From NCBI GenBank assembly GCA_030690165.1, contig JAUYHF010000051.1:1-64000 (forward strand): a stretch of DNA of 64,000 nucleotides, read 5' to 3'. Made by a program: the position numbers and the translations under genes. This document shows positions 3,292 to 55,091 of the stretch, piece after piece. Positions within the stretch are counted from its first letter, which is position 1; the number at the start of each line of letters is the position of its first letter. The stretch comes from Deltaproteobacteria bacterium (GTDB taxonomy: Bacteria > Desulfobacterota > GWC2-55-46 > UBA9637). The notes under the pieces are model-generated. The model saw nothing but the letters and a program-made list of their open reading frames with translations. It was not told where the DNA came from and ran no database searches.

Positions 3292-3895
3292 CCCTGAAAA
3301 GGACAGGATTACTGTTGACGGAAGGCTACTCTCTCATGCGCAGGAAAAGAGCGAAAAGGTTTATATCCTGCTCAATAAGCCTAAGGGTTATATAAGCACG
3401 GTTTCAGACCCGCAGGGAAGGCCAACAGTAATTGACCTTGTGAAAAAGATAAAGACAAGGATGTTTCCTGTCGGCAGGCTGGACTATGACGCAGAAGGGG
3501 CGCTGCTCTTTACCAATGACGGCGAACTCGCCAATAAGTTAATCCATCCAAAATATCATATCCCAAAAAAATATCTGGTAAAGGTCAGCGATGCCCCTGA
3601 CCAAAAGGACATTGCAAAGCTTAAGAAAGGCATTTATCTTGAAGACGGAAGGACCCTGCCTGCTGAGGCTAAATTTATAAAGTCAACAAAGACAAATTCA
3701 TGGATAGAACTTACAGTTTATGAAGGAAAAAACAGGCTTGTAAAAAGGATGTGCTTTGCAATAGGCCATTCTGTGCTGAAATTACAGAGAACAGAATTTG
3801 CCGGCATAAAATTAGGCAGCCTGAAGCCTGGAGATTTCAGGACGCTTACCATGGATGAGGTTGAAAGGCTGAAGAAAATAGTGTCAGTTTCGTAG
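3161..3895 (+). CDS. rluB: Ribosomal large subunit pseudouridine synthase (RluB/RsuA family)
   Basis: Modifies uridine to pseudouridine in rRNA; family members act on helix 93 of 23S rRNA or on 16S rRNA. An N-terminal S4 RNA-binding domain (about residues 1-60, opening MQERLQKIIARAGIASRRKA) is followed by the catalytic domain with GRLDYDAEGALLFTNDGE, where Asp108 is the expected nucleophile. The start is TTG at 3161 with GGAGG at 3149-3153, well inside scpB. The S4 domain begins at once, so a later start would truncate it. The exact target (RluB versus RsuA) cannot be fixed from sequence alone. Confidence 0.92.
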   Translation: MQERLQKIIARAGIASRRKAEEMIMEGLVTVNRQVVTELGTKADPEKDRITVDGRLLSHAQEKSEKVYILLNKPKGYISTVSDPQGRPTVIDLVKKIKTRMFPVGRLDYDAEGALLFTNDGELANKLIHPKYHIPKKYLVKVSDAPDQKDIAKLKKGIYLEDGRTLPAEAKFIKSTKTNSWIELTVYEGKNRLVKRMCFAIGHSVLKLQRTEFAGIKLGSLKPGDFRTLTMDEVERLKKIVSVS

Positions 3896-3921
3896 GATGG
3901 GTGAAGCGAAGCGCACCCATC
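3896..3921 (+). repeat. REP-like inverted repeat
   Basis: An 8-base perfect inverted repeat, GATGGGTG (3896-3903) and CACCCATC (3914-3921), flanks AAGCGAAGCG. It starts directly after the rluB stop and precedes the glycosylase start at 3933. There is no T-run, so it is more likely a dispersed palindromic element than an intrinsic terminator. Confidence 0.55.
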
Positions 3922-3932
3922 TGTTGTAAGCT

Positions 3933-4577
3933 ATGAACAAGGGACTATCCAATATCCTTAAAAAAAATTACCGGAAACTCTTCTCTGCCTTCGGCCCCCA
4001 GCGCTGGTGGCCTGGAGATACGCAGTTTGAGATTATAGTCGGCGCAATACTCACCCAGAATACAGCGTGGACAAATGTTGAGAAGGCAATACATAACCTA
4101 AAAGTGGCAAGGGTCTTACAGCCCATGAAGATGCACGGATTAAGCGAGAAGGAACTTGCAAAACTTATAAGACCGGCAGGCTATTTCAATATAAAGGCAA
4201 AGAGGCTCAAGCATTTTCTGAATTATCTTTTTGATAATTACGGCGGCAGGCTTGACCGGATGTTCAGGAAGAGGACGGACGCCCTCCGCCGCGGGCTTCT
4301 ATCAGTAAATGGCATCGGCCCTGAAACAGCAGATTCAATACTTCTGTATGCAGGCAGCCACCCGGTATTTGTGGTGGATGCGTATACAAAAAGAATCCTC
4401 TCCCGCCACATGATTATAAAAGAGGATGCAGGCTATGATGAAATCCAGAGGCTTTTCATGCAAAACCTGCCGCATGATGTAAATATGTTCAATGAATATC
4501 ACGCGCTGTTTGTAAATATCGGAAAGGGGTTTTGCAGAAACAGGAAGCCCTTTTGCAGCAGGTGTCCATTGATGTAA
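3933..4577 (+). CDS. HhH-GPD DNA glycosylase, MagIII / endonuclease III-related (COG2231-like)
   Basis: Base-excision repair glycosylase of the endonuclease III superfamily. The helix-hairpin-helix VNGIGPETA is at residues 125-133 and the general-base Asp is D149 in VVDAYTKR. The Lys that gives E. coli Nth its lyase activity is Glu131 here, and the GxGxETADSILLYA pattern resembles 3-methyladenine glycosylase III more than Nth, so a monofunctional alkylbase glycosylase is likely. The C-terminus keeps three Cys (201, 208, 211) of the usual four-Cys iron-sulphur loop, and the protein stops three residues after the third, so a normal [4Fe-4S] cluster is doubtful. Substrate is inference. Confidence 0.82.
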   Translation: MNKGLSNILKKNYRKLFSAFGPQRWWPGDTQFEIIVGAILTQNTAWTNVEKAIHNLKVARVLQPMKMHGLSEKELAKLIRPAGYFNIKAKRLKHFLNYLFDNYGGRLDRMFRKRTDALRRGLLSVNGIGPETADSILLYAGSHPVFVVDAYTKRILSRHMIIKEDAGYDEIQRLFMQNLPHDVNMFNEYHALFVNIGKGFCRNRKPFCSRCPLM

Positions 4578-49484: not shown

Positions 49485-49541
49485 ATTTTTTAATACTAAC
49501 ACCTTGTAATTTCAAATACAAGGGATCCGTTGAAGGGTGTC

Positions 49542-49707: not shown

Positions 49708-51252
49708 TTACTTAAGCCTCTCCATGAAAAATTGTACCTGTTTGTCATTAGATTTTAATGTCAGGGCATTTTTAAACGCTACTTTTGCTTTTTCCTTCTC
49801 GTCAATTTCATAATAACCCAAGCCAAGAGCCTTCCAGAGAGGAAAATCTTCTCCAAATCTTTTAACCCCATCTTCCAGACTTGTTATTGCCATCCTTTTA
49901 TTCTGCAAAAACTGATAACAAAGCGCCAAATAGTAGTAGGCAACAGGTGTGGGTGACGCCTGAATTGATTGCTCAAAAAGCTGTGCGGCATTCTGATAAT
50001 CATTCTTTTTAAATTTACCGTATGCCTGAGTCATCAAGTTTCCTGCCTTGCTGAAATCATGCTGCGGCTCCTGCTGCGGGGCTTCGCTTGCAACTGTTGG
50101 TGAAGATGGGGGTGTTTGAGTTATCTCTGTCCCGCTATCAGAACCCATTGCCTGTGACCTGGCATAAACATTTTCATTTATAGGAACGGCGAAGTAAATT
50201 TTAAGGAAGGTGTCTGCATTCAATGCCCCCCCAGGCAGATTATTCTTTGACTTAAAATCTGAGAAGGCCGCTTTTGTTTTTTCATCTACTTTTCCGTTTA
50301 TATCAATATCATAGCCGTGTAAGTACAGTTTTTCCTGCATCATACTGATTCTACTGGTATCATCCAACTTCGGGAATCCACGCATCCAGCTTTTAATTAC
50401 TATTTCATCAGCTACAGCGTCTTCGCCAAACACCCTCCAGTACGGAACAGCTGCGTATCTTCCCATAAGCTGTATCAAACCGGACTGAACAACTTGACGA
50501 ACAGCATCATGCCTTCCCTGAACTATTTTTCTGCTTCCTTTTGAACCAAAAGTCGGGCCGAAAAGCGTAATTCCAAATTCCTGTTTTCTCTGCCCCTTTT
50601 GTACTTCTATGGCATTCACAATATTCATGCCGGGGATGCCAGCAAGCGTCCTGAAATCTTTTAAATTGAAATCTACTGTAATACGGGCTTTTGTAGCCAT
50701 AGCAGAATCACTGTGTTCAATGCTTACAGTCTGTGATGGCAGGGCTTTGCTTACATGTGAGAATTGTACTTCAGCGCCTACATCCGTACCCTTGTCCCAT
50801 GATTCAAGCGCCCTGTCAAATTCAGTTATTGCGCCTGTTATAACAACATCAGGTATTAACTTATCGCTGAAATCTGAATAACCGGTCTGCTGCATAGCCT
50901 GAACGAATTCAGGGTCATATTCAATGAAAACAACATTTTCGCCCATAGAGTTGAGTGTACTCTTTACAATCTCTGTTATATTCTGCTGTATTTCGCTCCC
51001 GGTTGCGAAAGATGCGCCTGTTTTGTCAACAATATCCTTTACAACAACCTTTAACGGTTGTGCCCTGTGAATTTCCATCATCAATCCAAAAGTCTTTAAA
51101 TTATCTGTAAAAGTCGTGACCTTCTGTCCAGGGGCAGTAGTTTCTACCGGTACTTCCATATTTTTCGGGTCTATGGTGGCGCAGGACAGTAAAAATAATG
51201 GTAACGTCAAAGAGAGTAAAATATATGTAAATCTTCTTGCAACACCTTTCAT
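49708..51252 (-). CDS. CsgG-like secretion lipoprotein with peptidoglycan-binding and TPR domains
   Basis: A 514-residue lipoprotein (lipobox ending in Cys24, LLSC). The region of about 35-290 resembles CsgG/HfaB, the outer-membrane curli secretion pore: KVVVKDIVDKTG, VVITGAITEFDRALES and the C-terminal GRHDAVRQVVQSGLIQLMGR. It is followed by a PG_binding_1 domain (about 305-365, LHGYDIDINGKVDEKTKAAF), a Pro/Ser/Glu linker and TPR helices (about 405-514). The neighbours encode small secreted proteins, so export of these or of other surface polymers is likely. The substrate is inference. Confidence 0.75.
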   Translation of the reverse strand: MKGVARRFTYILLSLTLPLFLLSCATIDPKNMEVPVETTAPGQKVTTFTDNLKTFGLMMEIHRAQPLKVVVKDIVDKTGASFATGSEIQQNITEIVKSTLNSMGENVVFIEYDPEFVQAMQQTGYSDFSDKLIPDVVITGAITEFDRALESWDKGTDVGAEVQFSHVSKALPSQTVSIEHSDSAMATKARITVDFNLKDFRTLAGIPGMNIVNAIEVQKGQRKQEFGITLFGPTFGSKGSRKIVQGRHDAVRQVVQSGLIQLMGRYAAVPYWRVFGEDAVADEIVIKSWMRGFPKLDDTSRISMMQEKLYLHGYDIDINGKVDEKTKAAFSDFKSKNNLPGGALNADTFLKIYFAVPINENVYARSQAMGSDSGTEITQTPPSSPTVASEAPQQEPQHDFSKAGNLMTQAYGKFKKNDYQNAAQLFEQSIQASPTPVAYYYLALCYQFLQNKRMAITSLEDGVKRFGEDFPLWKALGLGYYEIDEKEKAKVAFKNALTLKSNDKQVQFFMERLK

Positions 51253-51381
51253 ATCTATCTCCCCTCTTGATAATGCCTGTTTAAATATATCTCAATGCCT
51301 TCTTATCGGCAGATCCTTTTCATATCTAATTATAAAAATCTGAAACATCATAATCCAAATAAATAAAAAGCGACCAACAAC

Positions 51382-51753
51382 CTATTTATCCACTATTTGA
51401 GTCTTTGAACCTTTGCTCTCGTCAATAATAATGATATCACCTTTTACGGTGCCGCCAGCCCCCATGACTACGCTGTTCATATTTCCAGATCCGCTCTTGT
51501 TCTTCTTGTCGGACCCGCCATCATTGTTTTTATCGTCCTTTTTTTGCCTTACCTTTGCCTTACTTTTTGCATCCAATTTCTTGAATTTTATATTTGGATT
51601 GAATTCCCCCATCTCGTGGTCAGACTGAATATCATCATCGGTATATTTCCCAATCTTATCGTCAAGATCACCTGCAATGGATGGAGTAGAGAGAGAGAAC
51701 ACTATAAATAAGATAAGTATGAATATTATTGCGCATGGATAAATTCTTCCCAT
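51382..51753 (-). CDS. Small secreted Lys/Asp/Gly-rich protein
   Basis: A 123-residue protein with a clear signal peptide (cleavage near SIAG, about residue 28). The mature part has a charged, low-complexity middle (Lys, Asp, Asn, Gly, Ser) and ends with NSVVMGAGGTVKGDIIIID followed by a basic tail. The VVMGAGGTVKG segment echoes the ANIAIGEGNKAKMGSV segment of the neighbouring repeat protein. Role unknown; it is placed between the repeat protein and the CsgG-like gene. Confidence 0.65.
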   Translation of the reverse strand: MGRIYPCAIIFILILFIVFSLSTPSIAGDLDDKIGKYTDDDIQSDHEMGEFNPNIKFKKLDAKSKAKVRQKKDDKNNDGGSDKKNKSGSGNMNSVVMGAGGTVKGDIIIIDESKGSKTQIVDK

Positions 51754-51769
51754 TTAAATTGCTCCATTG

Positions 51770-51815
51770 TTTTTTTTACAGGGATGGGACTATTTATCCC
51801 ACCCCCGTAAAAAAA
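51770..51815. repeat. Long hairpin between the two small secreted-protein genes
   Basis: A T-run with ACAGGGATGGGA (51770-51789) pairs with TCCCACCCCCGT and an A-run (51797-51815) around a 7-base loop, with two mismatches. The T and A tracts pair with each other, so no free T-run follows the stem. It could limit read-through or protect the upstream mRNA. Confidence 0.5.
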
Positions 51816-51826
51816 CATCAATCAAT

Positions 51827-52108
51827 TTATTTTATGTCTACTGACCCCATGTTGGCTTCATTGCCTTTGCCGATTGCAATGTTTGCTGATCCCTTTACAT
51901 CTGACTTATTGATAACTGCGCCTTGAACCTTTGAGCCCTCGATGCCTACTGACCCCATCTTGGCTTTATTGCCTTCGCCGATTGCAATGTTTGCTGAGCC
52001 CTTTACATCTGACTTATTGATAACTGCGCCTTTGATGTCTGAGCCGGCAAATGCCGTTGCAGCTGTCAGAAATACACTAATACCCAGAACTACGATTTTT
52101 TTAAACAT
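51827..52108 (-). CDS. Secreted tandem-repeat protein, putative amyloid or surface subunit
   Basis: A 93-residue protein: a signal peptide (to TAFAG, about residue 21), then two copies of a 36-residue repeat beginning GAVINKSDVKGSANIAIG and containing GN and MGSV. The DNA repeat is nearly identical over 108 bases. Alternating small, Asn and Ile/Val residues in tandem repeats resemble curli-type subunits, and a CsgG-like gene lies two genes downstream. Amyloid nature is inference. A strong promoter and an unusual leader of about 215 bases precede it. Confidence 0.7.
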   Translation of the reverse strand: MFKKIVVLGISVFLTAATAFAGSDIKGAVINKSDVKGSANIAIGEGNKAKMGSVGIEGSKVQGAVINKSDVKGSANIAIGKGNEANMGSVDIK

Positions 52109-52245
52109 TTTATCCTCCGTTTTTTAGTTTTTTTTAAATTGCGGCAATAAAGTTGCAGTTCATACGTTTCATTAAAGTTAAAAATCACTCGCCTCAAATT
52201 TAAGTCTCTTACCTCACCTCCTCTTCTACTTCTAAAAACTCTATT

Positions 52246-52286
52246 TTACGATAGAATATTTTTTTGCGCCTCCTTTCGTATCGTAA
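52246..52286 (-). promoter_or_regulatory. Structured leader with inverted repeat before the repeat-protein gene
   Basis: A perfect 8-base inverted repeat, TTACGATA (52246-52253) and TATCGTAA (52279-52286), encloses 25 bases with CGAAAGGAGGCGC on the minus strand. It lies in the 5' untranslated region about 140-180 bases before the start codon. I could not match it to a known riboswitch. Confidence 0.4.
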
Positions 52287-52295
52287 TTTTACTGA

Positions 52296-52321
52296 TATGT
52301 CTATAACTTATGTCTATAACT
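52296..52321 (-). promoter_or_regulatory. Exact tandem 13-mer just downstream of the promoter
   Basis: TATGTCTATAACT occurs twice back to back (52296-52308 and 52309-52321), directly downstream of the expected transcription start. It may be a regulator-binding site or a leader element. Confidence 0.4.
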
Positions 52322-52331
52322 AGTGATAAGC

Positions 52332-52361
52332 AGTATAACTATTACAAGATATAACTGTCAA
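52332..52361 (-). promoter_or_regulatory. Sigma70-type promoter for the secreted repeat-protein operon
   Basis: Minus-strand TTGACA (52361-52356) and TATACT (52337-52332) with an 18-base spacer. It points to the gene starting at 52108, giving a leader of roughly 215 bases. The ppdK stop at 52404 is just upstream. Confidence 0.6.
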
Positions 52362-52403: not shown

Positions 52404-55091
52404 TCAACGTGAACTCTTAAGCACCGCATGGGCAGCGGCAAGCCTTGCGATCGGCACTCTGAAAGGAGAGCAGGACACATAGTTAAATCCGTTCCTGTGG
52501 CAGAATTCCACTGTGGCAGGGTCGCCACCGTGTTCGCCGCAGATGCCTATCTTCAAATCTTTTCTTGTCTTTCTGCCTTTTTCAATGGCAATCTTTATGA
52601 GCATGCCAACGCCGTCCTGGTCAAGGGACTGGAACGGGTCGCTTTTTAGAATCCCTGCCTTTTTCTCATCAACATAATCGGGCAAAAATCTTCCTGCATC
52701 ATCCCTTGACATGCCAAGGGTCATCTGTGTAAGGTCATTTGTGCCGAATGAAAAAAATTCTGCAACATCTGCAATCCTATCGGCAAGAAGCGCCGCCCTC
52801 GGCACTTCAATCATGGTTCCTACAAGATATTTAACCTTAACGGCTTTTTCTTTTATAACTTTTTCAGCAACCTCTCTGGTCTTTGTTTCAAGTATTTTTA
52901 ATTCCTTGCCGTCTATCACAAGGGGGTGCATTATCTCGGGATGCACTTTGATGCCTTCTTTTGCGCATTCGCACGCAGCCTCAATTATCGCCCTCACCTG
53001 CATCTCAAGAATTTCCGGGTAGGTAATGCAGAGACGGCAGCCCCTGTGCCCAAGCATGGGGTTTGCCTCTTTAAGCCTTTCAACACGGCGCCTTACCTGC
53101 TCATACGGAACACCTATCTTCTCAGCCAAATGTCTCTGCTCACCTTCAGTATGAGGCACAAATTCATGTAATGGCGGGTCTATAAGTCTGATGGTGACCG
53201 GCTTCCCATTCATTGCCCTGAATATGCCTTTAAAATCTCCTCTCTGAAATGGAAGAAGTTTTGAAAGGGCAACTTTTCTTGTTTCGAGGTCATCTGCAAG
53301 TATCATCTCCTGTATTGCAAGCCGTCTTTCATCTGTATCAAAAAACATATGCTCTGTCCTGCAAAGGCCTATGCCTTCTGCGCCGAGCCTTATGGCATTT
53401 TCAGCGTCATACGGCGTATCCACATTTGTCCTTACATTCAGTTTCCTTACCTCATCAGCCCATTTCATAAGCGTATAATACGCATCCGGCAACTCTGGTT
53501 TTATAAGATTCATGCTGCCCTGAAATACCTCGCCTGCAGAACCATTGATAGTTATCTCGCTTCCTTCTCTCAGAACCTTGTTTCCTACAACAACGGTTTT
53601 GTGGATATAATCTATAACCAACTCCTCACACCCCACAATACAGCATTTGCCCCAGCCTCTTGCAACAACTGCCGCATGAGAGGTCTTACCGCCTGTTGCA
53701 GTAAGTATCCCCTGCGCGGCATGCATGCCGCCAACATCCTCCGGGCTTGTCTCTTTTCTCACAAGGATCACCTTCTCGCCTTTTTCTGCCCAATCCTCTG
53801 CATCCTTTGCAGTAAATACAACTTTGCCGCATGCAGCGCCAGGAACAGCGGCTATGCCTGTTGCAAAATGGTGCTTATTCAATTCATCTATTGTTATCTT
53901 TGGATCAATGACAGGATAGAAAAGACCTTCAATCTCTTTATCTGTAATCCTCAAGATTGCCTCTTTTTTTGTTATGAGCTTTTCTTTTACCATGTCAACT
54001 GCCATGCAAAACGCTGCTGTTGGAGACCGTTTACCGGAACGGCATTGAAGAATGTAAAGCTTACCCTCTTCAACAGTAAATTCTATATCCTGCATCTCCC
54101 TGTAATGCTTCTCAAGGCTTTTCCTTATATCGCAAAGCTGTTTGTATATCTTCGGCATCCTCTCATTCAGGTCGCTTAGATGAATGGGTGTGCGGATGCC
54201 TGCAACAACATCCTCGCCCTGCGCATTCATAAGTAAGTCGCCGTAAAAGATATTTTCACCTGTATTGGGATCTCTGGTAAAACAGACGCCTGTGCCGGAT
54301 GTTTCACCCTTATTTCCAAATACCATCTGGACTATATTTACCGCTGTGCCGAGAAACCCTGAAATCTTTTCAACGCGACGGTATGTGACAGCCTTTTCAG
54401 CCATCCATGAACCAAAGACAGCATTAATTGCGCCTTGGAGTTGTTCTGTCGGGTCTTGCGGAAAATCCTTGCCTGTATGTTTTTTATACACATCTTTTAA
54501 GCGGGAGATAAGTTCCCCAAGTTCATGCTCATTCACCTCGGTATCAAAGATCTTGTTATTCGTTTTATTCAGCCTTGGCCTTGTCTTCTCGTTTTTAATT
54601 TTTTCAAACTCATGCTCAAACTTCTCACGTGATATACCCTTGGCAATTGCGCCATACATCACAATAAACCTGCGGTAGGCATCCAGGACAAAACGTCTGT
54701 TATTGGTCTTTTTTGCAAGTCCCTCAATGGATTTATCGTTAAGCCCCAGATTTAGTATCGTTTCCATCATCCCTGGCATTGACCGCGCAGCGCCTGAACG
54801 GACTGAGACAAGAAGCGGGTCATTGGCGTCGCCTAATTTCTTGCCGATCAGTTTTTCAAGCCTTGATAGATTTTTGGCAACCTCTTTATCAAGACCCGGA
54901 GGGTGTTTTTTATTATTCTTGTAATAGAGATTACAGACCTCTGTGGTAATAGTAAATCCTGCCGGCACAGGCAGGCCAATATTTGTCATCTCAGCAAGCC
55001 CGGCGCCCTTGCCGCCGAGAAGCTCTTTCATGCTTCCCTTGCCTTCGGCCTTGCCTCCGCCAAAGAAATAAACAAATTTTTTAGATGCCAT
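52404..55091 (-). CDS. ppdK: Pyruvate, phosphate dikinase
   Basis: Interconverts pyruvate, ATP and phosphate with phosphoenolpyruvate, AMP and pyrophosphate. The 895-residue chain has the N-terminal nucleotide-binding domain (GGKGAGLAEMTNIGLPVPAG), the swivelling phospho-His domain (TGGKTSHAAVVARGWG, about residue 471) and the C-terminal phosphoenolpyruvate barrel with MIEVPRAALLAD and GICGEHGGDP. Together with the pyruvate synthase genes it allows gluconeogenic phosphoenolpyruvate formation, and phosphoenolpyruvate feeds the PTS encoded in the window. Confidence 0.96.
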   Translation of the reverse strand: MASKKFVYFFGGGKAEGKGSMKELLGGKGAGLAEMTNIGLPVPAGFTITTEVCNLYYKNNKKHPPGLDKEVAKNLSRLEKLIGKKLGDANDPLLVSVRSGAARSMPGMMETILNLGLNDKSIEGLAKKTNNRRFVLDAYRRFIVMYGAIAKGISREKFEHEFEKIKNEKTRPRLNKTNNKIFDTEVNEHELGELISRLKDVYKKHTGKDFPQDPTEQLQGAINAVFGSWMAEKAVTYRRVEKISGFLGTAVNIVQMVFGNKGETSGTGVCFTRDPNTGENIFYGDLLMNAQGEDVVAGIRTPIHLSDLNERMPKIYKQLCDIRKSLEKHYREMQDIEFTVEEGKLYILQCRSGKRSPTAAFCMAVDMVKEKLITKKEAILRITDKEIEGLFYPVIDPKITIDELNKHHFATGIAAVPGAACGKVVFTAKDAEDWAEKGEKVILVRKETSPEDVGGMHAAQGILTATGGKTSHAAVVARGWGKCCIVGCEELVIDYIHKTVVVGNKVLREGSEITINGSAGEVFQGSMNLIKPELPDAYYTLMKWADEVRKLNVRTNVDTPYDAENAIRLGAEGIGLCRTEHMFFDTDERRLAIQEMILADDLETRKVALSKLLPFQRGDFKGIFRAMNGKPVTIRLIDPPLHEFVPHTEGEQRHLAEKIGVPYEQVRRRVERLKEANPMLGHRGCRLCITYPEILEMQVRAIIEAACECAKEGIKVHPEIMHPLVIDGKELKILETKTREVAEKVIKEKAVKVKYLVGTMIEVPRAALLADRIADVAEFFSFGTNDLTQMTLGMSRDDAGRFLPDYVDEKKAGILKSDPFQSLDQDGVGMLIKIAIEKGRKTRKDLKIGICGEHGGDPATVEFCHRNGFNYVSCSPFRVPIARLAAAHAVLKSSR

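Follow-up and report, generated by a model that had tools for sequence, protein, structure and literature searches.

A three-gene locus on the minus strand of the window, the whole 64,000-nucleotide stretch of DNA that was analyzed, occupies positions 49708–52361 and encodes a secreted repeat protein (gene 1), a small secreted protein (gene 2) and a CsgG-like lipoprotein (gene 3), which probably build a surface fiber in a way akin to, yet distinct from, that of curli. We lean, somewhat beyond an even balance, towards a system for CsgG-type export of a fiber subunit other than curlin, in which the pore carries its own wall-binding domain. The reading frames, the two-repeat protein with its signal peptide, the second small secreted protein and the lipoprotein were all recovered where the initial annotation had placed them. 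The features of the locus and its two neighbors, the latter named from reading of their translations, are:

ends at 52404: neighboring gene, pyruvate phosphate dikinase
52332..52361, minus strand: putative sigma-70 promoter (TTGACA, 18 nt, TATACT), 11/12 consensus
51827..52108, minus strand: gene 1, secreted repeat protein of 93 aa with a signal peptide and two 36-aa repeats, putative fiber subunit (ORF and homologs)
51938..52045, minus strand: repeat unit 1 (GSDIKGAVINKSDVKGSANIAIGEGNKAKMGSVGIE), closest to unit 1 of locus L034 (100/108 nt)
51830..51937, minus strand: repeat unit 2 (GSKVQGAVINKSDVKGSANIAIGKGNEANMGSVDIK), closest to unit 2 of L034 (101/108 nt)
51382..51753, minus strand: gene 2, small secreted protein of 123 aa, putative pore-coupled nucleator or anchor (ORF and family alignment)
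49708..51252, minus strand: gene 3, CsgG-like outer-membrane lipoprotein of 514 aa with an LLSC lipobox
50377..51165, minus strand: CsgG-like domain, residues 30–292 of gene 3 (hhalign against CsgG orthologs)
50233..50352, minus strand: PG_binding_1-like domain, residues 301–340 of gene 3 (E 1.1e-3, below cut-off)
49711..50052, minus strand: TPR domain, about residues 401–514 of gene 3 (TPR_2 above the Pfam cut-off, E 2.2e-8)
starts at 49502: neighboring gene, lipoyl-synthase-like

The initial annotation had proposed one promoter followed by a long leader. TTGACA and the ~18 bases after it are also present upstream of gene 1 in the relative loci L033 and L034. The putative promoter is supported by conservation only, because promoter-like sites are no commoner in the region (seven found) than in shuffles (8.3 expected). 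The length of the leader is not conserved, as the leaders of L033 and L034 are about 100 nt shorter. An Rfam search of the locus returned no RNA family at a credible score, and PADLOC found nothing in it.

By remote homology, gene 3 is a member of the CsgG superfamily. The profile of its family (37 members, 33 of which were used) was aligned by hhalign over 201 columns to CsgG orthologs from the same phylum with a probability of 94.9 and an E-value of 4.4e-8, and six shuffled controls and one reversed control reached a probability of at most 0.3. The profile also aligns to E. coli CsgG, and the lipobox cysteine, residue 24 of gene 3, is nearly invariant across the family. The Pfam CsgG family (PF03783) is matched weakly by 18 of the 37 members (best 4.5e-4) but not by the protein from the window, so that its description as a CsgG-like lipoprotein stands on the remote homology and the conserved lipobox. 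A PDB sequence search with gene 3 returned mainly TPR matches, and by profile it reached CsgG only at E 0.49. The AlphaFold model of the whole protein, calculated from only four near-identical sequences, has a pLDDT of 42 and is uninformative on the fold. Peaks of alternating hydropathy at residues 155–166 and 222–243 are located roughly at the two membrane hairpins of CsgG, which is a suggestive but weak correspondence.

The TPR domain reported previously in gene 3 is borne out by the TPR_2 match, and the region was modeled as helices with high confidence; TPRs were detected in five of the 37 family members, and other members have other C-termini. The peptidoglycan-binding domain is sub-threshold in the protein from the window (PG_binding_1, 19.5 bits against a cut-off of 23), but 22 of the 37 members match it at E ≤ 0.1 (best 3.7e-6). 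Matches to DUF4384 are present in eight of the 37 CsgG-like proteins.

The CsgG superfamily includes periplasmic proteins without a pore. Gene 3 might form such a poreless ring, like FlgT, LpoB or PelC, and serve as an envelope scaffold, with the proteins of genes 1 and 2 located in the periplasm or brought to the surface by another route. The peptidoglycan-binding and TPR domains fit this role, the membrane hairpins of gene 3 are putative, and a PF03783 protein encoded in the related locus L035 also matches LpoB and FlgT. However, the alignment to E. coli CsgG covers the hairpin regions, and genes for secreted repeat proteins accompany the CsgG-like family; we regard a periplasmic scaffold as unlikely.

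The substrate of the preferred export system would be the repeat protein. Its two units are identical to each other at 95 of 108 nucleotides. The window has two repeats versus four in close relatives; homologs upstream of the CsgG-like gene contain 4 to 12, and further paralogs up to 41. The repeats are 35–37 residues long, and among 150 sampled units G5, N9, N18, A20, G22 and A27 are kept in 93–100%. Giant secreted repeat proteins, 965–1508 aa long with 26–41 units, adjoin the module at L144, L116 and L108. Pfam and NCBIfam matches of the repeat proteins to LBP_C, Hirudin, CsgE and others were scattered over unrelated families and were judged compositional. As a counterpoint to the fiber reading, two repeats make a short fiber subunit. 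They would fit a short anchor in a complex resembling HfaABD, the holdfast anchor of Caulobacter, in which the CsgG-like protein would not make long fibers but position adhesive proteins to bind the cell to a layer of polysaccharide or other material. The holdfast is anchored jointly by HfaB, which is CsgG-like, and HfaA, which is curlin-like and assembles into resistant multimers (PMC6707917). The module likewise combines a CsgG-like lipoprotein with small secreted partners, but gene 3 scores 11.6 bits on the HfaB model (NF037935), for which the cut-off is 300, the small genes of the module matched no named family in the searches made, and the arrays of up to 41 repeats in relatives argue against a short anchor. 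An HfaABD-like complex is, in our estimate, distinctly improbable.

The initial annotation had proposed that the structure of the repeats be predicted. The model of the four-repeat homolog from L034 is confident, with a pLDDT of 92.9, and β-rich, each repeat comprising four strands, although one model of the five had a score of 35. On this basis, the repeat fold of gene 1 is predicted to be β-rich, and each 36-residue repeat may form one layer of 36 residues or two of 18. The best Foldseek match of the four-repeat model in the PDB is the FapC amyloid (E 3e-4, probability 0.41, TM 0.18), a weak match that may serve as a lead rather than as a superposition; FapC gave no sequence match to the repeat protein among PDB chains. 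The weaker structural matches include many solenoids of other functions, and the repeat proteins could be non-polymerizing β-solenoids, adhesin-like or ice-binding-like, that are displayed by the CsgG-like pore, but FapC alone matches in the PDB at E below 0.001, and open-ended, variable-number repeats with near-invariant Asn and Gly resemble functional amyloids, which makes this reading very unlikely.

Asn-rich β-repeats, predicted in the module, also occur in the Fap system, which differs from the module in export and in repeat length. Fap is exported by the trimeric barrel FapF (PMC12822426), whereas the module has a CsgG-type protein, and the repeat layers of FapC, which span residues 45–96 and so on (PMC12392863), are longer than the 36-residue repeats of the module. 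We put forward only tentatively, and would sooner doubt than assert, that the module represents a third class of functional amyloid, with CsgG-type export of FapC-like 36-residue solenoids, one small protein in place of CsgF and CsgB, and a self-anchoring pore, widespread in one phylum and reaching the Alphaproteobacteria.

The family alignment of gene 2 (n=27) contains a conserved mature N-terminus, DLDDgI.kyTDDgI...NIKF...AKSKA, and a conserved C-terminus, NMNSVV.GAG..V.GDI.IID.SKG.KT, and the family matched none in Pfam. The motif that had been suggested to be common to genes 1 and 2 could not be upheld, as the similarity is very weak and not significant (profile–profile probability 3.8%). 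The dN/dS ratios of gene 2 (0.22–0.29) and gene 3 (0.14–0.18), which together span 0.14–0.29, show purifying selection on both coding sequences. In L034, IS30-like transposase ORFs (3540–4470), named from their translation, separate gene 2 from the CsgG-like gene and interrupt the operon.

The statement that no csgE, csgF or csgB homolog is apparent agrees with our searches, in which CsgE, CsgF and curlin were not found in the window genome (controls positive). True CsgG was not found there at 1e-10; in the sample of 395 genomes from the phylum, nine have it. Among 36 module-bearing genomes, CsgF and the curlin repeat (PF07012) were found in none and CsgE in one, each search having a positive E. 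coli control; the lone CsgE match, L148 (G007:C14:14505-14768), contains an internal stop. The profiles of genes 1 and 2 gave no alignment to CsgA (partial), CsgB, CsgE or CsgF. The module resembles curli, or type VIII secretion, in that an outer-membrane lipoprotein of the CsgG superfamily is encoded with secreted Asn/Gly-rich β-repeats of variable number. Unlike curli, it is without CsgF or curlin and, but for the interrupted match, CsgE; some systems accepted as curli lack CsgE as well (PMC3521004). Its repeats of 35–37 residues differ from those of curlin, which have 23 ± 5 (PMC10192328), and the gene 3 family adds a peptidoglycan-binding part and TPRs, DUF4384 or further C-terminal regions. 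No description of the module family was found in the open-licence PMC papers searched.

The CsgG-like domain was detected in 8 of 395 genomes of the phylum sample and, in four classes, in 4 of 46, 43 of 258, 16 of 297 and 1 of 85 genomes. A relative is located on a plasmid of Azospirillum lipoferum, and none of the viral contigs searched with the family profile matched. Within 3 kb upstream of 54 CsgG-like genes, profiles identified a same-strand small gene in 31 cases and the repeat gene in 23; many of the remaining loci have diverged repeat genes or small secreted ORFs that are plainly repetitive or analogous. In the class with 258 genomes, the CsgG-like gene is present in 43 and the small gene in 33, with both in 32, the small gene alone in one and neither in 214. 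The Fisher p of 2.4e-30 for this co-occurrence overstates its strength, because the genomes are related to one another and most of the loci behind the small-gene profile (A6) had been chosen for their CsgG-like neighbor, many of them coming from this class; the search itself extended beyond the chosen loci. Eleven genomes with the CsgG-like gene have no detectable small gene, and most of these carry divergent members. The best small-gene match adjoins the CsgG-like gene in most genomes and is located elsewhere in few (e.g. G668, G672). The initial annotation had named an absence of the small genes beside the CsgG-like gene in relatives as an outcome that would speak against its proposal; they adjoin it, and the surveyed genomes show that the content, order and linkage of the three genes are conserved across many distant relatives.

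The proposal of a curli-like or new fiber system draws on the CsgG homology, the linkage and order of the genes, the absence of CsgF and curlin, and the β-rich repeat model. It cannot be called minimal, as it had been, since the family is widespread, and in many relatives the number of repeats is far higher, reaching 41, and additional genes are present. We infer the pore, the export, the fiber and its amyloid character, the anchoring to the wall and the function of gene 2 as follows. The gene 3 lipoproteins would form a CsgG-type ring in the outer membrane, which the C-terminal peptidoglycan-binding domain would fix to the wall. The ring would export the Sec-secreted repeat protein, which would stack its 36-residue, four-strand repeats into a β-solenoid, and the solenoids would join end to end into a surface fiber or adhesive. 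In curli, the mature N-terminus of CsgF sits at the CsgG pore. The protein of gene 2 would also be exported, its conserved mature N-terminus may similarly sit at the pore, and its C-terminal β-segment may start or hold the fiber, so that gene 2 alone would replace CsgF and CsgB. If this mechanism is true, CsgG-type export is not bound to curlin, CsgE or CsgF, the module offers a new repeat scaffold for work on functional amyloids, and hypothetical proteins in many little-studied bacteria are explained.

Some modules have additional neighbors. At L046:2525-6031, these include genes for DUF2807 and trypsin/PDZ proteins and for two secreted proteins that matched nothing in Pfam. At L035:1566-4821, the module adjoins genes for the PF03783 protein (E 2.9e-41), for a TPR-like protein and for another secreted protein, and relatives of the latter two are encoded elsewhere in the window genome, on a different contig (L053).
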